In this document: piece by piece, positions 23,618-37,130 of the stretch
Position numbering within the stretch: the stretch's first letter is position 1
Layout: each line of letters opens with the position of its first letter
Origin: a virus
Reading direction: 5' to 3' (one strand)
Length of the DNA stretch: 37,899 nucleotides
Virus record (IMG/VR): IMGVR_UViG_3300029989_000086
Span: 1-37,899 of that record
Notes under the pieces: model-generated
Told to the model about the DNA's origin: nothing
Database searches by the model: none
The model's input: the letters and a program-made list of their open reading frames with translations, nothing else
Translations under genes and position numbers: made by a program

Positions 23618-24214
23618 ATGGGAAAGATCACTGCTGAGCTGGCTGACGGCTCGATCCTGGAGGCTTCCGCCTCCATCGTAAGCATCACCACCGACACAGA
23701 GCACGACTACGACCTGGGTTCGTGGTGGAGTGTCCCGATTCTCACGTACCGCCTGGAGGCGAACCTCCTCGACGGGTACAAGATCACCAAGCCCAAGCCG
23801 GCCTACAAGGTCGACCAGGAGCTGATCACCGAGGAGGACTACGCGAACCTTCCTGATGGTGCAACCGTGAACCCATCCAGGTCCTACCTCACCTGGCGGG
23901 GCGACTCGATGCACTACATCAAGCGTGATGGCATGTTCTGCACAGTTGACTACTACCCCGCCTCAGCTTGGCCTGCCATCAAGCTGACCGGAGCTGCCCG
24001 CACGGTCCGCTCCCTGCCGGACACCGAGGTCACGATCTCGGCCAAGAAGCTCGACCTGCTGAACGCCGAGCTGGTCGACGTGCACGAGGAGAAGGAAACC
24101 CTCCGTGCGCGGGTGGCTGAGCTGGTCGAACAGGTCAACAAGGAGCGCTATGTGAACGCTGGCCTCCGGAACGCCATCAGCGAAGCCAAGTACGAGTTGG
24201 ATCTCGTCGCGTGA
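23618..24214 (+). CDS. Hypothetical protein with C-terminal coiled coil
   Basis: 198 aa, ATG 23618 with GAGGAGGAAGT. The first two thirds are beta-rich (SIVSITTDTEHDYDLGSWWSV). Residues ~140-190 (AKKLDLLNAELVDVHEEKE, RARVAELVEQVNKE) form a coiled coil that would dimerise it. It overlaps the ATP-grasp gene by 4 bases. Function unknown. Confidence 0.55.
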   Translation: MGKITAELADGSILEASASIVSITTDTEHDYDLGSWWSVPILTYRLEANLLDGYKITKPKPAYKVDQELITEEDYANLPDGATVNPSRSYLTWRGDSMHYIKRDGMFCTVDYYPASAWPAIKLTGAARTVRSLPDTEVTISAKKLDLLNAELVDVHEEKETLRARVAELVEQVNKERYVNAGLRNAISEAKYELDLVA

Positions 24215-24915
24215 TCTCAATCGCCTACAGCGGGACTAGCTCCCCATCGGCACACCGTCTCGCGGAGGTGAGTCCCGAGGTCGAACTGGTCCGGGACTCC
24301 TCTGCGGAGGTCGACGTGAACTGGGGGCGAGCGGACGCCAACGCCAAGCTCAACCGCGACACGAGCAAGGCCACGAACAAGCGCGTCATGCGGGAGCTGT
24401 TCCGTGAGCACGGAGTTCCCATGCCGACGCTCTACGACGTGGACGAGGTTCAGGTCCCCGCCATCGGCCGGCCCGATCGCCACACAAGGGGCAAGGCCCT
24501 GTGGCTCTGTGAGAATGACGGCGCCGTGAAGGCTGCCCTTCGAGGCACGCCTCGCAAGCGAGCTGCCAGCCATTTCATGGAGTATGTGTCGAAGGAGCGG
24601 GCTCCCCGCGAGTTCCGGGTCCATGTGTTCTTGGGCAACGTGATCCGCACCAGCCTGAAGTCCTACGACGCGGCAGCTCAAGAGGCTGGCCGGCACTACA
24701 CGACGGTGAGTGCGGAGGGCTTCCGGACTGACCACGTTCGGGACGCTGCACGCAAAGCGATCAAGGCTGTCGGTCTGGACTTCGGAGCTGTGGACGTCCT
24801 GGCGAACGACGACGAGTGCTGGGTCCTGGAGGCGAACTGCGCTCCTGGTCTTGGCGGAACGATGCCCGAGGTGTACGCGAACGCGTTCGCCAGCTGGAAG
24901 GAATGTGCCGCATGA
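24211..24915 (+). CDS. ATP-grasp ligase (RimK/COOH-NH2 ligase type)
   Basis: 234 aa from GTG 24211. VNWGR near residue 37 and NKRVMRELFREHGVPMP begin the ATP-grasp fold; the lid region ALWLCENDGAVKAAL and FMEYVSKERAPREFRVHVF bear the ATP-binding Lys and Glu, and FGAVDVLANDDECWVLEANCAPGL holds the Asp/Glu/Asn Mg ligands. The family joins a carboxylate to an amine using ATP. Phage members are thought to modify peptides or wall components, but substrates are unproven. Here it is followed in a 4-base overlap by a tiny Cys-rich protein and a 66-aa protein, which may be substrates. Confidence 0.75.
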   Translation: MISIAYSGTSSPSAHRLAEVSPEVELVRDSSAEVDVNWGRADANAKLNRDTSKATNKRVMRELFREHGVPMPTLYDVDEVQVPAIGRPDRHTRGKALWLCENDGAVKAALRGTPRKRAASHFMEYVSKERAPREFRVHVFLGNVIRTSLKSYDAAAQEAGRHYTTVSAEGFRTDHVRDAARKAIKAVGLDFGAVDVLANDDECWVLEANCAPGLGGTMPEVYANAFASWKECAA

Positions 24916-25370: not shown

Positions 25371-26777
25371 TTAGGCCGCACTGGGCTCGAACACAACCTT
25401 GTCCGGATCGTAGGTCCTGGCCCCCCTCCCGAGCGGCGTGAGGGTGATCTTCGTGAACACGCGGCTAAGGAGGGTGCGGTACTCCCCCCTGCTCATCTGC
25501 GCAAGCTCCTGCGCTAGGTACTCCTCGTCCCGTACGGCCTCTAGCGCGGTCCAGGATTGCCCCTGCCCGAGTCTGGCAAGCTCAGCGTTGATCTGTGCCA
25601 GCTGACCCTTCAGGGAGTCCTCAGCGGCTTGTAGGGCCGCGAGCGAGATGGTCCCGGATGCGAATGCCTGACCAACCTCGGAGGAGCGCGATTCGGCCGC
25701 GATCTTCCCTGACTTCAGGATGCGAAGCCGCTCAGTATCGCCGTCATCTAGCTCCCCACTCCAGAGGTCCGGGCGGCTAGCGAGTTCGGTGATCAGGCGT
25801 TTGAACACGACCGCGTTAAGCCAATCTTCGGGGTAGTTGAGGTGCTGGGTGGCGGAACAGCAATAGAACGTCGCGAAGGCCTTCCGCTTCGCTATCGTCC
25901 CCCGCTTCTTGATGTGCGCACCGCAGACCCCGCACGAGACGAACGACAGCCCACCCAGCTCCGTCGTGGGGCTCGCGCCGGAACTGACTGCCCTCGGAGT
26001 TAGGCGAGTGGGGTCATTGAGGATCGCTAATGCCGCACGGTAGGTCGGCTCGTCTACGATCGCTTCCCAGTCACCGGGACCTACCTCAACGTCGTGATAG
26101 GTGTTGATCCCGGCATTACGCGCGTACTTCAAGATGCGGCCAACATCCCTGGGGGTGTGGCTCTTTCCGGTCCCCCGAGTGAATCCAACCGATTCCCAGT
26201 ACCGGGTGATGTCACCCATGGTTGATCCGGTGACCAGCATGCGGTAAGCCTCGGCGATGTAGGGCGCCTGCGTAACGTCGACGGTTCCGTCCAGCGCGTA
26301 TCCGTAAGGCTTCTTCGACCACCACTTCCTCCCCATCGCTGCACGCTGACGATTAGCCAACCTCTGCCGCTCCCCCTTCAACTCCACCTCATTCTGTGCC
26401 CAGGCGGTGACGGTACGAGCCAACGCTCGGCCGGTGGGGGTACTCAGGTCGAACTCGCCAGCCTGAAGTGCGTGGACCTTGCACCCCAGGTCGAGAACCC
26501 GCTCCAGATCCTTTGTCGACTTCCGCAAGAGTCGGTCGTTGTGCCAGCACACGATGTCTCGCGGACGGTCCTTCAGTAGCTGCTCGAAGTCAGGGCGGAG
26601 CTTCCCGTTCGAGGCGCTGATGTCGTTGTCGCGATAGACTCTGGTGACGGTGAAGCCATGGCTCGCAGCCCACTCCTGACACACGGTCTCCTGGCGCTCG
26701 ACGCCGAGTGCCTGCTCTGAGGGGTCGTCACTGATGCGGACGTAGATCACGCATTCACTAGGGGAGTTGCTCGTCAT
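25371..26777 (-). CDS. int: Large serine integrase
   Basis: 468 aa. N-terminal resolvase domain with catalytic Ser16 in YVRISDDP, Arg-rich helices, and VCWHNDRLLRK; recombinase domain from about 150 (KKPYGYALD); zinc ribbon (SCGVCG ... FYCC) around 280-310; and a C-terminal coiled coil (LQAAEDSLKGQLAQINAELARL). This is the standard large serine recombinase that joins attP to attB in the host chromosome, so the phage is temperate. It is the first gene read leftward from the attP candidate, and its ATG is only 6 bases from a -10-like box with no ribosome binding site, implying a leaderless message. A directionality factor is not recognised. Confidence 0.92.
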   Translation of the reverse strand: MTSNSPSECVIYVRISDDPSEQALGVERQETVCQEWAASHGFTVTRVYRDNDISASNGKLRPDFEQLLKDRPRDIVCWHNDRLLRKSTKDLERVLDLGCKVHALQAGEFDLSTPTGRALARTVTAWAQNEVELKGERQRLANRQRAAMGRKWWSKKPYGYALDGTVDVTQAPYIAEAYRMLVTGSTMGDITRYWESVGFTRGTGKSHTPRDVGRILKYARNAGINTYHDVEVGPGDWEAIVDEPTYRAALAILNDPTRLTPRAVSSGASPTTELGGLSFVSCGVCGAHIKKRGTIAKRKAFATFYCCSATQHLNYPEDWLNAVVFKRLITELASRPDLWSGELDDGDTERLRILKSGKIAAESRSSEVGQAFASGTISLAALQAAEDSLKGQLAQINAELARLGQGQSWTALEAVRDEEYLAQELAQMSRGEYRTLLSRVFTKITLTPLGRGARTYDPDKVVFEPSAA

Positions 26778-27397: not shown

Positions 27398-27603
27398 CAC
27401 GCCATCTCCCTCGCTGACACAACCTTGAAGCTGTACCGCAAGGCCTGCCTCGGGGATGATCCTCCGGAGATCTCTGTCGCCCGATCAATCGCGGCCGGTT
27501 GGGTATCTGCATGGACGACCATGGTGACGTAGCTATCTCGGATGGGGCCTCGGTTATACGTTCCCGTAGTCCATGTGCATCGTTCGATCGTGAACTCGGT
27601 CAT
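27397..27603 (-). CDS. Small hypothetical protein
   Basis: 68 aa, ATG 27603, 4-base overlap with the RNA ligase stop. Reads like a single small alpha/beta domain (ERCTWTTGTYNRG, SYVTMVVHADTQ). No family recognised. It is translationally coupled to the ligase. Confidence 0.5.
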   Translation of the reverse strand: MTEFTIERCTWTTGTYNRGPIRDSYVTMVVHADTQPAAIDRATEISGGSSPRQALRYSFKVVSAREMA

Positions 27604-28352
27604 GCAACCAACTCCATATCCGATTTGCGCAGCGCGACTTCGGCAGCCTTCTCCGTGTCGTCGACGAACGCCTTGAACGTCTGCCTGCTGCCTGAGTGGA
27701 ACAGCACGACGCCCTCGGGCTTGTCGAACTCGGCCGCATAGGAGCCGTGGTCACGCAGCGCGCCTATCGCGGCATCGACGTAGCTGCCGACCCGGACGAC
27801 GTCCGTGTCCTCGTTCAACCACGACACCAGGGGAACGAGGCCGAGCGTCGGCATATCTGGGAACGGGCTCGGCCCGCCGTAGAACACGTTGCTCCGCTGG
27901 GCGATGGCCAGATCCATGAAGTTATCGAACGGGTTGTGTCGGGTGACGTTGAACAGGCTGAAGCGCTTCTCGCCCTTCGGCAGTCCGTAGCCCCGCTGGA
28001 TTCCGTTGCCCCACCACTCACCGAAGTGGCGACCGGGGCCGAGGATCTTAACCAGGGCCTCTGCGTTGTCACGAACCCAGGCTGCGAAGCCGAAGTTGTC
28101 GGACTCGGGGGTGACGAACCGCTTGCGAGACTGCGCGTAGACGACGTACTGCTGCACGGGGAAGCCGTCGTCAGGGTCGGTCTCTCCGCCGAACACGACC
28201 GCGACACAGGCTGGATGGTCGACCCGTGGGCTCGGCCCCCACCACTCCTCCTCGATCAGTACGGCGCTGTTGGTGCCGTCGATCTTCTCGGTGATGATGA
28301 ACGGGCTGGCGAGCCGGGGGATCTTCGGCCAGGACTGAAACTCGACAGTCAC
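27600..28352 (-). CDS. Rnl2-like RNA ligase
   Basis: 250 aa from GTG 28352 with AAGGAG upstream. Nucleotidyltransferase motifs in order: motif I EKIDGTN with the AMP-accepting Lys23, AQSRKRF (motif Ia-like), motif III FGEWWG (Glu112), motif IV EGVVLF (Glu213), motif V FKAF (Lys227). This set is that of the T4 RNA ligase 2 / DNA-repair-type RNA ligases, which seal 3'-OH/5'-P breaks, usually in duplex or nicked RNA. It ends after motif V with only a short tail, so it lacks the C-terminal domain of Rnl2. It works in the same operon as a kinase/phosphatase and an Rnl1-type ligase. Confidence 0.85.
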   Translation of the reverse strand: MTVEFQSWPKIPRLASPFIITEKIDGTNSAVLIEEEWWGPSPRVDHPACVAVVFGGETDPDDGFPVQQYVVYAQSRKRFVTPESDNFGFAAWVRDNAEALVKILGPGRHFGEWWGNGIQRGYGLPKGEKRFSLFNVTRHNPFDNFMDLAIAQRSNVFYGGPSPFPDMPTLGLVPLVSWLNEDTDVVRVGSYVDAAIGALRDHGSYAAEFDKPEGVVLFHSGSRQTFKAFVDDTEKAAEVALRKSDMELVA

Positions 28353-28934
28353 TCACTTCTCCTTGGTGGTGGTGGTCACGGTCGGCTTCCCATCGAGAAC
28401 AACGCGGTGCTTCGTGCTGTCCCAGTGAGCAGCGCCACCAGTGGTCTTCACGTAGCCCTCCCAGTAGTCGATGTAGGCGGTGCCATCCTCGGCCACGCAG
28501 ACGATGTACGTGCCACTGGAGTCACCCGTGTAGACGCCGGTCTGCTCGGACTGGGCAATGACGCCCCAGTCGCCGCTAGACATGCCGGCCAAGGTTCCGT
28601 AGGTGATCTGCTCGGGGTTGGTCAGCTGGGTGGTTGAGGGAACCGGGAATCCGATACTCGGGCACTCGTCGATCGGGTCGGTGACGCCCTGGTTGAACAT
28701 GAACGTGGTGGTCGCCACGGAGTTCGCCTGGGCGCTCGTCACGTCGATGACGGTCTGGCGGTACTGCGACCAGTCGAAGTTCGGGACTGGCTGGACGGCC
28801 TGGAGCTTCTGGAGCTGACTGTTGGCGCTCTTGGCGTCGTTGACCGTGGCTGTGGGTGTGTAGCTGCACGCAGCGAAGCTGGTGGCGAGGGCGATACCAG
28901 CAAGGCCGGCGAGGATCTTCTTCTTGTTGTTCAT
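28353..28934 (-). CDS. Secreted lipoprotein
   Basis: 193 aa, ATG 28934 with AAGGAG. The N-terminus is a type II signal peptide: NNKKK, then a hydrophobic stretch (ILAGLAGIALATSF) and lipobox FAAC with Cys23 as the lipid site. The mature part is a Thr/Ser/Gly-rich beta domain with two further Cys. It should be anchored on the outer face of the host membrane. Phage lipoproteins often block adsorption or DNA entry by competing phages; this is plausible but unproven. It directly precedes the RNA ligase gene with no gap. Confidence 0.75.
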   Translation of the reverse strand: MNNKKKILAGLAGIALATSFAACSYTPTATVNDAKSANSQLQKLQAVQPVPNFDWSQYRQTVIDVTSAQANSVATTTFMFNQGVTDPIDECPSIGFPVPSTTQLTNPEQITYGTLAGMSSGDWGVIAQSEQTGVYTGDSSGTYIVCVAEDGTAYIDYWEGYVKTTGGAAHWDSTKHRVVLDGKPTVTTTTKEK

Positions 28935-28945
28935 AGGGGTCTCCT

Positions 28946-29257
28946 TCAGTTGCAGATGCGGGCGTTCGCCACAGCCAGATCGGCGGGCGGGTTCTGGATG
29001 GTCACGTAGATGGCGCAGAAGGTGGACTTGATCTGTTTCTTCTGTGCGTCGCTCGTGGAGGCGTCATATCCCTGGATGCGGGCACGCTCAGCGGCCACGG
29101 TCGCGTCCTGCCATTGCTGGGAGGTGTGGTTGACTTCGCGCTCCTGGGCCACGTTGGCCTTGTAGAGAGCCCAGCCACCGAACCACAGACCGACACAGAC
29201 GGCGACGGCGACGATGGTCGCCAGGATGCCCAGGAGGGCGTTCTTCAGGATTCCCAT
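28946..29257 (-). CDS. Single-span membrane protein
   Basis: 103 aa from ATG 29257; an upstream ATG at 29263 would leave only one base after the GGAGGA ribosome binding site, so 29257 is preferred. One membrane helix (NALLGILATIVAVAVCVGLWFGGWAL), then a charged helix and a C-terminal domain with two Cys (FCAIYV, RICN). It precedes the lipoprotein and may act with it at the cell surface. Confidence 0.6.
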   Translation of the reverse strand: MGILKNALLGILATIVAVAVCVGLWFGGWALYKANVAQEREVNHTSQQWQDATVAAERARIQGYDASTSDAQKKQIKSTFCAIYVTIQNPPADLAVANARICN

Positions 29258-29259
29258 AC

Positions 29260-29469
29260 TCATTCCTCCGTGCTGACCGGGCTGCGTAGCCCTGTCTCGT
29301 ATTCGACTGCGGCCTTCCAGCCCTTATCCCAGCCCTTGTCCATGCCCTCGAAATATCCAGCTGCCCTCGCGCTGGAGATGAGTGTCGACACGGCATCGTC
29401 GAACTTCCGCAGGTCGCTGCCGAAGCTCTCCTCGAACCAGTCGAGGCCGGAGCACTTGTCGTCGGTCAT
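29260..29469 (-). CDS. Small hypothetical protein
   Basis: 69 aa, ATG 29469. Helical, acidic first half (DWFEESFGSDLRKFDDAV), then KGWDKGWKAAVEYE. No motif. Four-base overlap with the gene before it. Confidence 0.5.
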   Translation of the reverse strand: MTDDKCSGLDWFEESFGSDLRKFDDAVSTLISSARAAGYFEGMDKGWDKGWKAAVEYETGLRSPVSTEE

Positions 29470-29681
29470 GCGACCAACCTCAGGGGTGCAGAGCGAGTTG
29501 GCGCAGAGATGGTGAGGGTCGGCCCCTCCTCGATCGATGAGAGGGAGATGTCGTCAACTCCGCCAAACCATGCCGACGCCTTCGCCCAGATGCTGGTGCG
29601 AGCCTCGTCCGGGGTGTCCGCATAGGTGGTCCAGGTCAGATCCTCACCGCCTGCCTGGAGGAAGTACGTGAACTTCGTCAT
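29466..29681 (-). CDS. Small hypothetical protein
   Basis: 71 aa from ATG 29681, which has a strong AAGGAGG just upstream; longer forms do not. Beta-strand-rich (KFTYFLQAGGEDLTWTTYA) with an alpha segment (EARTSIWAKASAWFGG). It resembles small single-domain phage proteins; function unknown. Confidence 0.5.
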   Translation of the reverse strand: MTKFTYFLQAGGEDLTWTTYADTPDEARTSIWAKASAWFGGVDDISLSSIEEGPTLTISAPTRSAPLRLVA

Positions 29682-29911
29682 ACTTCCTCCTTCCCCCACG
29701 CCTCGATCCACAGGTCACGCAACTCGCGCAGCGCGATCGGAGTGAGGGTGAAGGGCCATAGCGGGCTCAGCCATGCCAGACGCAGCGCTTCCCGACGCGC
29801 CTTCGGCGAGTAGGCGAAGGTGGCATCCGTGCCGAACTTGATAAACGAGACCATGAACCCGAAGAACCAGATCAGACCCAGGACGATCATGATGGTGATG
29901 CAGTCACTCAT
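29678..29911 (-). CDS. Small membrane protein
   Basis: 77 aa from ATG 29911 with GGAAGG. One membrane span near the N-terminus (TIMIVLGLIWFFGFMVSFI), then a basic/aromatic cytoplasmic part with a second hydrophobic patch (LRLAWLSPLWPFTLTPIAL). The recurrent motif lies 4 bases before its ribosome binding site. Confidence 0.55.
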   Translation of the reverse strand: MSDCITIMIVLGLIWFFGFMVSFIKFGTDATFAYSPKARREALRLAWLSPLWPFTLTPIALRELRDLWIEAWGKEEV

Positions 29912-29926
29912 GTAGTCACCTTCCAT

Positions 29927-29938
29927 TCAAGTTACACA
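29927..29938 (-). promoter_or_regulatory. Recurrent motif, minus-strand copy (TGTGTAACTTGA)
   Basis: In the 32-base gap between the kinase/phosphatase and the membrane protein gene at 29911, just before that gene's ribosome binding site. Orientation follows leftward transcription. Confidence 0.5.
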
Positions 29939-29943
29939 TAGGT

Positions 29944-30843
29944 CTAAAAGTCACCGGGGCCACACTGCATGCAGGTCAGCCCCAGATCACGCCAGAGATC
30001 CACCACGGAGTTGCGGTCATCAAACACGCCGACGACGTTGTAGTAGTCCCTGATCCACTCGTTGAAGATCTCCAGCTTCGCCTGCGAGTCAGGCCGGCTA
30101 TCGCCTTCCTTCCGCATGAACAACTCGGCCCAGGTCTCTCGGCCCAAGGTCTCATCCAGCCACTCAGCGGTCGGGATCTCACCCTCGCTGGAGCGCCCAC
30201 TGACGACCAGGACTGTGTGTCCCAGTTTGGACAGGCCCTTCGCCAGGGTGACCACAGCCTCGTGAGGGGAGTCCTGCTTGAGGGTGTCGTCAGTGGCGTA
30301 GAACGAGCGGCCGGACTTGTTGAGGGAGAGGGTGCCGTCGATGTCGAAGATGAACGCGGACGGGTGTGCCCTATTCGGCACGTAGGGCTCGGGGGCAACC
30401 CTGTCCGATTCCGGTGCGGGTGGTCGCTTGCGGAAGCGTCGGTTGATGTCCCGGATCACTTCCTCGCCAACCGCGTCGGCCCTCTTTGCGTCCCGCCGAA
30501 CGCACTCTTCGACGTCTGTCGTGACGTCCAGGACGCTGAAGTTCGCACCAGTCTCAGCGGCGATGTTGACCCACACCTTGAGGTACTTCAACCGCAGGTT
30601 CAGGTCGTCGATCACCACGCTCTTGCCGGCCTTCAAAAGCGTCCGGACGGAGTCACGCTGGATGCGTGAGATCTGCGTCTCCTGTGCGTTCGTCAGGCCC
30701 TTACGGGTGCCGTACAAGGCGTCCCGCAGCGGGTCTCGGCCCACTCGTGCGCGCCCTTCCGGGTCTTCAGCCACCCACTTCAAGGCGGCGGTGGTCTTTC
30801 CAGAGGCGGGAAGGCCCCTCGTTGCAATCAGCTCAACAGCCAT
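29944..30843 (-). CDS. T4-like polynucleotide kinase/phosphatase
   Basis: 299 aa, ATG 30843 with AGGAGG. The N-terminal kinase has P-loop GLPASGKTT (Lys16, Thr17) and GRD (Asp37) as general base candidate; the C-terminal HAD phosphatase has FDIDGTL (Asp167, Asp169), VVSGRS, and FDDRNSVVDLW. The order and positions closely follow T4 Pnkp (kinase then phosphatase, about 300 aa). It would remove 2',3'-cyclic or 3'-phosphate ends and add 5'-phosphate, preparing cut RNA for the ligases on either side. It lies between the two RNA ligase genes in one operon, with one 75-aa gene next to it. Confidence 0.92.
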   Translation of the reverse strand: MAVELIATRGLPASGKTTAALKWVAEDPEGRARVGRDPLRDALYGTRKGLTNAQETQISRIQRDSVRTLLKAGKSVVIDDLNLRLKYLKVWVNIAAETGANFSVLDVTTDVEECVRRDAKRADAVGEEVIRDINRRFRKRPPAPESDRVAPEPYVPNRAHPSAFIFDIDGTLSLNKSGRSFYATDDTLKQDSPHEAVVTLAKGLSKLGHTVLVVSGRSSEGEIPTAEWLDETLGRETWAELFMRKEGDSRPDSQAKLEIFNEWIRDYYNVVGVFDDRNSVVDLWRDLGLTCMQCGPGDF

Positions 30844-31055
30844 GAGTTGGCCTCCTTCTCAGTCCCCTCAAGGACGGTCGCTCGTTCGTTGTCTCGGGTC
30901 AGCCAGCGCAAGTCCGCAGCGACCAACGCTGCGCCGGCGTAGTCGGTGAATGGCTCACCCCACAGCATCGTCACGTCTGAGGTGATCGTGTTGTAGATGA
31001 CCGCCCAGTAGTAGACGGGCGCCAGTTTCGGGAACAGTTTGTCGAGAATGCTCAT
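30828..31055 (-). CDS. Small hypothetical protein between ligase and kinase
   Basis: 75 aa from ATG 31055. Starts MSILDKLFPKLAPVYYWAVI; has a hydrophobic/aromatic N-terminal stretch and a C-terminal helix (LRWLTRDNERATVLEG). Overlaps Rnl1-type ligase by 4 bases and the kinase/phosphatase by 16, so it is fixed in the RNA repair set by coupling. No known motif. Confidence 0.5.
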   Translation of the reverse strand: MSILDKLFPKLAPVYYWAVIYNTITSDVTMLWGEPFTDYAGAALVAADLRWLTRDNERATVLEGTEKEANSWLLS

Positions 31056-32197
31056 GCGGCCTCTTTCTCCTGGACTCGGTTGTTGGTTTGGGTGGGTCGG
31101 GTCATCCGCCACAGAGCCTTGTCCAGCTGGTCCCACTTGCGATCCAGCACCAGGAACAGGAGGCTCCGATTCCCGGACTTACTTACGGCGTCCGCGAACA
31201 CCTTCCGCTCCTCGCGGGTGACGTCGATTCCCGGCGCCCAGTCGCCGAACACCTCATCCGAGACCTGATCCCACTCGTCCCACACGCCGCCCTCGATGGC
31301 TGCCTGCTGGCCCCGCAGGTCCATCCAGACATTGGTGAACCATCTCCTGAACTCCTCAGGGAAGTTCAGGTGCACGAGCGCATCCGAGTAGGTCGGGTAC
31401 TTCCCCATCAGCTCCCATACGGTCAGCTCATTGAGGCCGGTCACGATGCGATGCAGGGCGATGTAGTCCTCTTGCTTCACCTTCACTGCGGTCTCCCACA
31501 TGGGGCCTTCGCGATCAATGAAGTGGACGACGTAGCCCTCCTTGTTGTCGCGGTGGAGGTCTTCGAGGACGTCCACCAGATTCCCGAAGTAGTCGACCGG
31601 GGTTCCGAAGAAGTCTTCGGCGTCCTCGTCGATCCACCAAGCCTCGCTGCGATCAGGCGGCGCTGCGCGAAGGACGACCAACCCCTCGAAGCCCTTGTAG
31701 TCGAGGACGATTCGGTTCTCCGGGTAGAGGATCTCGAACAGGTAGGTGAATCCGTCTTTGGGCGTGAAACCCTGGGAGATCGCATCCTGGAGCATCTCAG
31801 TGCCCTTCACGGCCTGCTCTGAGTGGAAGCTGCCGCGTGTTGCGATGGCATAACCACCCTTCGGGTGCGGGTAGAGGATTCCGAGGGAGCCGTCCATCTT
31901 GTCCACGGCGATCACATTCTCGTCGAGTCCATATGTGCCCTCGGGATGTTCGCCCAGGTTGAAGAACTTGCCGAATGGCTTGGTGACGATCTCGCCGTCC
32001 AGGCTGCCGGTGGTGGACTTGGCGATCAGGCCTCGCGTCTGGCGGGTCACGTCATTCCAATGGCTGTCGTTCTGGCACTTGTGCGTGTAGTTGAAGATCA
32101 TCAGGTATGGGTCATCGTCGTGGACGGACACCTTCACGTAGCCGTCCTCGATGTCATGGCGGAGCTGGTGGATGTCGAGAAGTTCGGAGAGTTTCAT
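31052..32197 (-). CDS. Rnl1-type RNA ligase (T4 RNA ligase 1-like)
   Basis: 381 aa, ATG 32197. TRGLI (Arg55) and KPFGKFFNLGEH precede motif I VDKMDG with Lys100, matching T4 Rnl1 where the same Arg, the PFPKFFN-like element and the active Lys99 sit in register. Further motifs: IATRGSF (motif Ia), YLFEILY (III), EGYVVHF (IV), VKVKQEDY (V, Lys pair). A helical C-terminal domain of about 110 residues follows, as in Rnl1, where it recognises tRNA. It seals single-stranded RNA breaks such as tRNA anticodon cuts. It ends one base after the start of the 75-aa gene. Confidence 0.9.
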   Translation of the reverse strand: MKLSELLDIHQLRHDIEDGYVKVSVHDDDPYLMIFNYTHKCQNDSHWNDVTRQTRGLIAKSTTGSLDGEIVTKPFGKFFNLGEHPEGTYGLDENVIAVDKMDGSLGILYPHPKGGYAIATRGSFHSEQAVKGTEMLQDAISQGFTPKDGFTYLFEILYPENRIVLDYKGFEGLVVLRAAPPDRSEAWWIDEDAEDFFGTPVDYFGNLVDVLEDLHRDNKEGYVVHFIDREGPMWETAVKVKQEDYIALHRIVTGLNELTVWELMGKYPTYSDALVHLNFPEEFRRWFTNVWMDLRGQQAAIEGGVWDEWDQVSDEVFGDWAPGIDVTREERKVFADAVSKSGNRSLLFLVLDRKWDQLDKALWRMTRPTQTNNRVQEKEAA

Positions 32198-36295: not shown

Positions 36296-36979
36296 CTAGA
36301 TGTAGCGGGTGATACGGGGGTTGAGGATGATCAGCACGTCAGTCGGGTCGGTCGCTATGAAGGCGAGTCTGTCGCGGATTAGACGATTCGGCGCCACCGA
36401 CAGTGCGCTGGTGACGGCACCGGGGATCGCGAACACCGGTCGACCCAGGCTGATTGCACGGTTCACGGTGCTAGTGGAGCCGGACCTCTCGGACGCCTCC
36501 ACTATCAGGGTGGCGACACTCAGTGCGGCAATCAGGCGGTTGCGCTCCAGGAAGCGATCTCGGGACGGCGCCCCACCGGGCTCCACCTCGGACACCAGGA
36601 CTCCACGCACGGCGATGCGATCGAAGAGGCTGGCGTGTCCCGGGGGAGTGGGCTGATCTAGTCCGGACGCGAGGACGGCGACGGTCGGCGTGGCACCTGT
36701 CATGCAGGCGCGATGAGCCGCCGCATCGATGCCGTAAGCGCCACCGGAGACTACCGAACGGCCCTGATTGGAGAACGCCTCGGCGAACTCCGCCGCGACG
36801 ACATCACCGTAGGCGGTTGATGCACGCGCACCGATGATCGCGATGGAACCCTCGGTCAACTCGGCCAGACTGCCCTCACCCATCACCCAGAGCCCTGCGG
36901 GCGGGTCGGTCAGATCGGAGAGCTGGGCGGGCCACTCGGCGTCGCCGGGCTGGATGTGCCGCATTTCGGTGGTCGTCAT
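36296..36979 (-). CDS. dprA: DprA-like DNA-processing protein
   Basis: 227 aa from ATG 36979 (AGAGGAG upstream). The Rossmann core is clear: SIAIIGARASTAYG, VVSGGAYGIDAAAHRA (the hallmark SGxAxGID), ERNRLIAALS, and EASERSGSTSTVNRA, GRPVFAIPG. DprA binds single-stranded DNA and loads RecA in bacterial transformation; phage and mobile-element copies belong to the same SLOG-type fold, some tied to nucleotide signalling. It lacks the C-terminal winged helix of full-length bacterial DprA (usually 300-380 aa). In a phage it may assist recombination of incoming DNA or sense nucleotides. Confidence 0.85.
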   Translation of the reverse strand: MTTTEMRHIQPGDAEWPAQLSDLTDPPAGLWVMGEGSLAELTEGSIAIIGARASTAYGDVVAAEFAEAFSNQGRSVVSGGAYGIDAAAHRACMTGATPTVAVLASGLDQPTPPGHASLFDRIAVRGVLVSEVEPGGAPSRDRFLERNRLIAALSVATLIVEASERSGSTSTVNRAISLGRPVFAIPGAVTSALSVAPNRLIRDRLAFIATDPTDVLIILNPRITRYI

Positions 36980-37078
36980 GGCAACTCCTCTTAGGTCTGT
37001 GTTGGGCGCCGGGGTTCCCGGTGGGAGGGGGGATGCTTGATCACCCCTCCATCTCAGGACACGTCCCCGGCTGAAAGC

Positions 37079-37130
37079 GATGCAACTCATGGCCCCTGAG
37101 AGAGGGGGTCCTCAGGTCCCTTGTTGCATC
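37079..37130 (-). other. Long stem-loop upstream of dprA
   Basis: Outer arms GATGCAAC (37079-37086) and GTTGCATC (37123-37130) pair exactly, and CCTGAG/CTCAGG (37095-37100 with 37111-37116) closes the inner stem. It lies in the longest gap of the leftward arm (36980-37413), about 100 bases before dprA. There is no T run after it on the minus strand. A transcript leader structure or operator is possible. Confidence 0.45.

Follow-up and report, generated by a model that had tools for sequence, protein, structure and literature searches.

Why would a phage place two different RNA ligases in one operon with an enzyme that heals RNA ends? The question was raised by a linear virus record of 37,899 bases (IMGVR_UViG_3300029989_000086, 37.9 kb), which starts within tail genes; it is referred to here as the window. 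No close DNA relatives of the window were found among 50,697 phage records. The large serine integrase (468 aa, 25371..26777, minus strand; phrog_95, E = 2e-74) lies outside the repair set, and its best matches were the integrases of R4-group Streptomyces phages, with 37.8% identity to that of phiCAM. An affinity to Streptomyces phages, Joe among them, is also seen in the tape-measure protein. Together, these matches mark the window as part of the genome of an R4-like actinophage, presumably a virus of soil-type actinobacteria, and the large serine integrase shows that it is temperate. Since the record begins inside the tail genes, an absence from it should not be read as an absence from the phage; this applies to tRNA genes and to RlaP, neither of which was found in the record.

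The repair genes are transcribed leftward, from 32709 down to 27397, and each gene either shares 4-34 bases with the next or is separated from it by 0-17 bases. This layout supports the proposal, made in an initial annotation of the sequence, that the genes for an Rnl1-type ligase, an Rnl2-like ligase and a polynucleotide kinase/phosphatase (Pnkp) are part of a single leftward operon. GC content is even across the operon and its flanks (0.61-0.65). All three reading frames were found to be open and complete, with every motif named in that annotation present, and profile searches matched the three proteins to PF09511 (Rnl1), PF25109 and AAA_33 (Pnkp), and PF09414 (Rnl2-like).

The Rnl1-type ligase (381 aa, 31052..32197, minus strand) has its nucleophile, Lys100, in a KMDG motif. 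The match to PF09511 (E = 1.7e-9) scored 38.3 bits, above the curated cut-off of 28.3, and phrog_562 was matched over residues 9-367 (E = 3.4e-57). In an alignment to the T4 Rnl1 structure 2c5u (E = 1.2e-9, residues 33-255), motifs I (KMDGS), III (FEI), IV (EGYV) and V (KVK) are kept. As to the C-terminal helical domain that follows the catalytic domain in Rnl1, the phrog_562 match reaches residue 367 and the structural alignment stops at 255. The Pnkp (299 aa, 29944..30843, minus strand) has a P-loop, GLPASGKTT, at residue 10 and a DIDGTL motif at residue 167. Its kinase domain (AAA_33, residues 5-138, E = 1.6e-21) and HAD phosphatase domain (PF25109, residues 161-299, E = 1.6e-39) form a T4-type 5'-kinase/3'-phosphatase in one chain, which is colinear end to end with T4 Pnkp (1ltq, residues 3-301, E = 4.6e-29). 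In the 1ltq alignment, kinase and phosphatase domains alike keep their catalytic residues (GxxxxGK[ST], DxDGT, SGR and DDR). Families and active-site residues thus agree with the view that these two proteins are the tRNA-repair enzyme types of T4. In T4, Pnkp and Rnl1 restore tRNA-Lys cleaved by PrrC (PMC2610378), and the window pair would most likely act in the same way.

The third protein (250 aa, GTG start, 27600..28352, minus strand), with Lys23 in KIDG, consists of a nucleotidyltransferase domain only. It matched PF09414 above the cut-off (E = 1.9e-9), a family matched by all 28 of 28 members of the compact-ligase group, and it matched the first part only of the 341-position profile phrog_548 (E = 2.7e-24). 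NCBIfam TIGR02307 (Rnl2) did not match the window protein at E <= 0.01 and gave a weak match in 3/28 members. The search for relatives yielded 81 phage records, 17 viral contigs and 69 loci in bacterial genome assemblies, and an alignment of 75 compact ligases was used for the motif survey and the length statistics. The median length was 200 aa, with a median of 14 residues past the motif V lysine (n = 75); the greater length of the window protein is due to internal loops and not to an extra domain. T4 Rnl2 has a C-terminal domain of about 85 residues that is missing from the family. An N-terminal OB domain of the DRB0094/NgrRnl (Rnl5) type is also missing, as only 22 residues stand ahead of Lys23. 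K23, D25, G26, N28, S75, E112, F134, E213 and K227 were invariant in 75/75 sequences, which implies selection for activity. The last of these, Lys227 in the window protein, is the first lysine of motif V; the second was found in 0/75, its place being taken by Thr (51), Leu (18) or other residues.

An AlphaFold model of the compact ligase was built from the 75 sequences and had a pLDDT of 86.9; it replaced a first model from 16 sequences, which was poor (pLDDT 66.8). The model was compared with known structures and aligned with residues 159-339 of the Naegleria ligase NgrRnl (Z 10.2) and with residues 22-233 of T4 Rnl2 (1s68; Z 9.7, 3.3 Å over 155 residues). Both of these best matches are nick-sealing RNA ligases, and in each only the catalytic domain was covered. 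DNA ligases followed behind them, with Z of 8.7 and lower. The original label of Rnl2-like ligase therefore needs qualification: the PF09414 catalytic domain, its predicted fold and Lys23 agree with it, but a protein reduced to that domain and changed in motif V is not an Rnl2 in the T4 sense. Judging from its sequence and model, the protein is best called a putative compact Rnl2-like ligase.

The next question is whether the three enzymes travel together. Whole-record searches covered 29 records with a compact ligase, some of them fragments and with relatedness incompletely removed, and found Pnkp in 6/29, Rnl1 in the same 6, and neither in 23/29 (Fisher P = 2e-6 for the co-occurrence, or 6e-5 with three Streptomyces phages taken as one). 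Rnl1 and Pnkp are inherited together as a single unit, and the compact ligase is gained and lost independently of this pair. Mostly, it occurs without the pair and is placed in phage replication modules. The three-enzyme combination is not unique to the window. All three genes are also clustered in Arthrobacter globiformis phage Seahorse, in contigs of Herbidospora galbida, Actinokineospora enzanensis and Saccharopolyspora indica, and in a cyanobacterial MAG contig; in the large Streptomyces phages BRock, Alone3 and pSt2308 and in Caulobacter phage CcrSC they are all present but lie dispersed. The clustered compact ligases were scattered over a tree of 88 sequences, a quick tree with many open forks, on which six changes were counted, at least four of them forced by well-supported branches. 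Clustering with the pair arose several times, and a single ancestral three-gene cassette was ruled out by this scatter. The RNA-repair setting is strengthened by the Herbidospora contig, in which the order is Rnl1, RlaP, Pnkp and compact ligase and the 20.5-kb locus holds 14 tRNA genes. RlaP is a Pfam RNA-repair family, polymerase-beta-like and associated with RNA ligases (PMC7824862).

This independence is also seen in three phages of one laboratory host, A. globiformis, that have a neighbourhood in common: Auxilium has the compact ligase only, Bauer has Rnl1 and Pnkp only, and Seahorse has all three. The alignment of Seahorse with Auxilium DNA breaks off where Rnl1 begins and resumes right behind Pnkp, so both genes were inserted or lost together. 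Seahorse and Bauer are 87% identical through Rnl1-Pnkp. At the place of the compact ligase, Bauer has an AAA_23/SMC-like ATPase, and a profile search of the whole phage found no compact ligase elsewhere. Seahorse (MH910041) resembles the window in that its compact ligase, Rnl1 and Pnkp (genes 74, 81 and 82) lie inside 5.4 kb of a temperate phage. It differs in gene order, in its 37-41% identity to the window proteins and in a HAD_SAK_2 RNA-repair phosphatase gene two genes before Rnl1, which adds to the RNA-repair setting. Because these three phages carry each combination, the roles of pair and third ligase can be approached by gene removal and plating.

How much of this is new? The three-enzyme set is itself an already published type of phage RNA repair: combinations of Rnl1 and Rnl2 with further ligases are known from phages, and non-redundant sets directed against RNA-cutting defences have been argued for (PMC7824862), while the Pnkp and RNA ligase of Microbacterium phages have been proposed as counter-defence (PMC7302621). 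T4 has all three ligase and healing functions in one phage, with the same enzyme families and active-site residues. However, its Rnl2 (rnlB) is encoded elsewhere in the genome and has the C-terminal domain, whereas the window set lies in one operon of a small temperate actinophage and its third ligase lacks that domain. The ligase sets of Iyer et al. (2021) were described for jumbo phages, with divergent actinophage ligases treated only in passing; one actinophage protein, AYD81305.1, was placed outside Rnl1/Rnl2. Mycobacteriophage Omega and others of clusters J, E and L are temperate actinophages in which Pnkp and an RNA ligase co-occur and counter-defence was proposed (PMC3706429). According to excerpts of that report, the two genes are not closely linked and have tRNA genes alongside, and the excerpts mention no compact ligase. 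In the open-licence literature, no description was found of a compact phage ligase family made of the catalytic domain only, of the change in its motif V or of its occurrence independent of the Rnl1-Pnkp pair.

The arrangement is probably best understood as a two-part RNA-repair cassette in a temperate actinophage, in which a pair that heals and seals is separable from an enzyme that only seals. Pnkp would heal RNA ends made by ribotoxins, removing the 2',3'-cyclic or 3'-phosphate and phosphorylating the 5'-OH, and Rnl1 would then seal them, with tRNA anticodon loops as the most likely site. The compact ligase would act without the pair, on ends that are ready as 3'-OH and 5'-phosphate or on nicks. 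Most phages that carry it lack such an end-healing enzyme, so its natural ends are probably already in this form. The initial annotation had suggested that two ligase classes meant either repair of two kinds of RNA breaks or specialisation. This interpretation is partly supported: specialisation agrees with the independent gain and loss of the third ligase and with the sets of Iyer et al. On this two-part explanation, the enzymes would be active, with RNA as substrate and tRNA as the main target, in a counter-defence role, and the host population may accordingly possess RNA-cleaving defences, as that annotation had supposed. What argues against a two-part RNA-repair cassette is that most compact ligases lie among genes of DNA replication and nucleotide metabolism and not beside RNA-repair genes.

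The reduced build of the compact ligase raises a different explanation, in which the enzyme charges itself poorly and is either dependent on a partner that supplies an OB fold in trans or a finisher of RNA ends pre-adenylylated by, for example, Rnl1. We regard this as possible but doubtful. T4 Rnl2 without its C-terminal domain is strongly impaired in self-adenylylation, the first step, and the engineered T4 Rnl2(1-249) K227Q, a poor self-adenylylator, is used to join pre-adenylated RNA (PMC3514331). The compact family, with its short tail after motif V and no second lysine in any of the 75 sequences, resembles this enzyme in keeping the catalytic domain alone and losing the same lysine; it differs in being natural and in having Thr (51/75) or Leu (18/75) at that position. 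There is also precedent for a partner, as trypanosome REL1 obtains its OB fold in trans from KREPA2 (PMC4366279). Activity of the compact ligase without a partner is not assured, given the impairment of truncated T4 Rnl2. On the other side, the Methanothermobacter ligase MthRnl has Thr at the second motif V position and the wild type still self-adenylylates (PMC3514331). DpRNL of Diplonema papillatum, known as a model only, is a short Rnl2 relative (about 203 aa) with Val, a non-basic residue, at this position (PMC4599027); it is eukaryotic, and it is likened to the compact family by description only. Considering MthRnl, REL1 and DpRNL, a catalytic-domain-only build would not amount to a demonstration of defectiveness. 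The genomic data also speak against the partner or finisher role, since most members occur without Rnl1, and the survey of 95 neighbourhoods revealed no recurrent dedicated partner gene and no small OB-fold gene adjoining the ligase.

The same neighbourhoods bear on whether the compact ligase instead serves phage DNA replication, acting on RNA-DNA or DNA nicks, with its position in the operon being incidental. The commonest neighbours at the 95 loci, named from annotated members and sequence reading, were dNMP kinase, DNA polymerase I, Cas4-like exonuclease, a protein related to recombination directionality factors (RDF), ribonucleotide reductase and ThyX; DNA polymerase I, the exonuclease, primase, ribonucleotide reductase and ThyX are the company expected by this explanation. 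Nevertheless, the residue at motif I +5 is Asn in 75/75, as in T4 Rnl2. DNA ligases have Arg at this position. The modelled structure is nearest to RNA ligases, and the gene has repeatedly joined Rnl1-Pnkp clusters and also an RlaP operon. A replication role is therefore judged unlikely. Finally, the whole set could be idle baggage of mosaic exchange with no present role, as actinophage genomes are mosaic and the cluster as a whole is shared by no close relative (all <50% identity). This is very improbable, because the three frames are intact and their catalytic residues complete at 32-48% identity to relatives.

Within the two-part cassette, the labour may be split by the chemistry of the RNA ends, a refinement that we put forward only tentatively and that is itself rather improbable. 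Rnl1 and Pnkp would deal with cuts that leave 2',3'-cyclic phosphate and 5'-OH ends, made by PrrC and other HEPN- or MazF-type enzymes, and the compact ligase with cuts that leave 3'-OH and 5'-phosphate ends, above all those of VapC-type PIN tRNases, which actinobacteria have in abundance. Cleavage by VapC toxins yields a 5'-monophosphate (PMC10287673), and an anti-phage role has been proposed for mycobacterial tRNases, VapC among them (PMC10264068). Such a target would explain why the compact ligase needs no healing enzyme, why it is usually alone and why it is common in actinophages. The role of Rnl2-type ligases outside kinetoplastids has been described as unknown (PMC4599027), and the split, if true, would provide a biological role for one of them. 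The compact family offers a small, common and genetically separable example of this type. A natural RNA ligase made of the catalytic domain alone would, if active, also be informative about the minimum needed for sealing and might serve as a reagent.

The small genes between the repair enzymes, all on the minus strand, had been suggested to be further anti-defence or exclusion genes, and no evidence for this was obtained from Pfam, PHROG, PADLOC or the search for relatives. Known defence or exclusion genes were rejected as an identification because no PADLOC or Pfam match was seen at the limits used, the exceptions being a T2SSM match below the cut-off and a weak spanin-like PHROG. An ORF at 30828..31055 encodes 75 aa from the ATG at 31055 and overlaps both neighbours, rnl1 at its end and pnkp at its start; a longer reading of 102 aa had no family match in Pfam or PHROG. 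Three small ORFs follow within 29260..29926, at 29678-29926 (a membrane protein), 29466-29711 and 29260-29469, with no family matches at E <= 0.01. The next gene (28946..29263) encodes a small membrane protein of 105 aa with a weak match to an Rz-like spanin (phrog_5151, E = 1.4e-4). Next to the compact ligase lies a predicted lipoprotein of 193 aa with the lipobox AAC (28353..28934), whose only relatives, all distant, are hypothetical proteins of 21 Vibrio phages.

The compact Rnl2-like ligase was found in four Herpetosiphon species (loci L119, L121, L122, and L128), and the ligases from L119, L121, and L122 formed a tight group on the tree, from which L128 was left out. The Herpetosiphon ligase is perhaps a vertically inherited cellular copy and not a prophage gene. 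In the Caulobacter phage CcrSC (locus L057, 3065-4576, + strand), a gene annotated as a polyribonucleotide nucleotidyltransferase is directly followed by the compact ligase gene.

Rnl1, RlaP, Pnkp, and the compact ligase are encoded consecutively on a Herbidospora galbida contig (L002, 7220-10579, + strand), and the locus also has 14 tRNA genes. The identical sequence is catalogued twice, once as a virus and once among bacterial contigs. Among the Arthrobacter phages, the position held by the compact ligase in Seahorse and Auxilium is occupied in Bauer by gene 64, which encodes an AAA_23/SMC-like ATPase of 403 aa (Bauer locus L130, 5786-6997, + strand). Seahorse gene 79, annotated as hypothetical (Seahorse locus L048, 14656-15183, + strand), lies near Rnl1 and Pnkp and matches HAD_SAK_2, a Swiss Army Knife RNA repair phosphatase.

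The window gene adjoining the compact ligase gene encodes a predicted lipoprotein (28353-28934, - strand), whose relatives among phages were confined to 21 Vibrio phages, where they are hypothetical proteins with approximately 32% identity to it. A Myxococcota contig (L103) contains both a relative of this lipoprotein and the compact ligase.

Outside the repair set, the window encodes a DprA-like protein (36296-37090, - strand; PF02481, E 4.7e-61), for which the closest PADLOC match was ShosA (E 3e-52). This phage-borne DprA relative may possibly function in recombination or defence. A RimK-like ATP-grasp gene (24211-24915, + strand) is located immediately ahead of the integrase gene; its product matched PF08443 barely over the cut-off and also matched phrog_2599 (ribosomal protein S6 glutaminyl transferase). 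Lastly, an endonuclease/exonuclease/phosphatase-family gene (PF03372; 11319-12059, + strand) is flanked by tail genes and a predicted endolysin gene.
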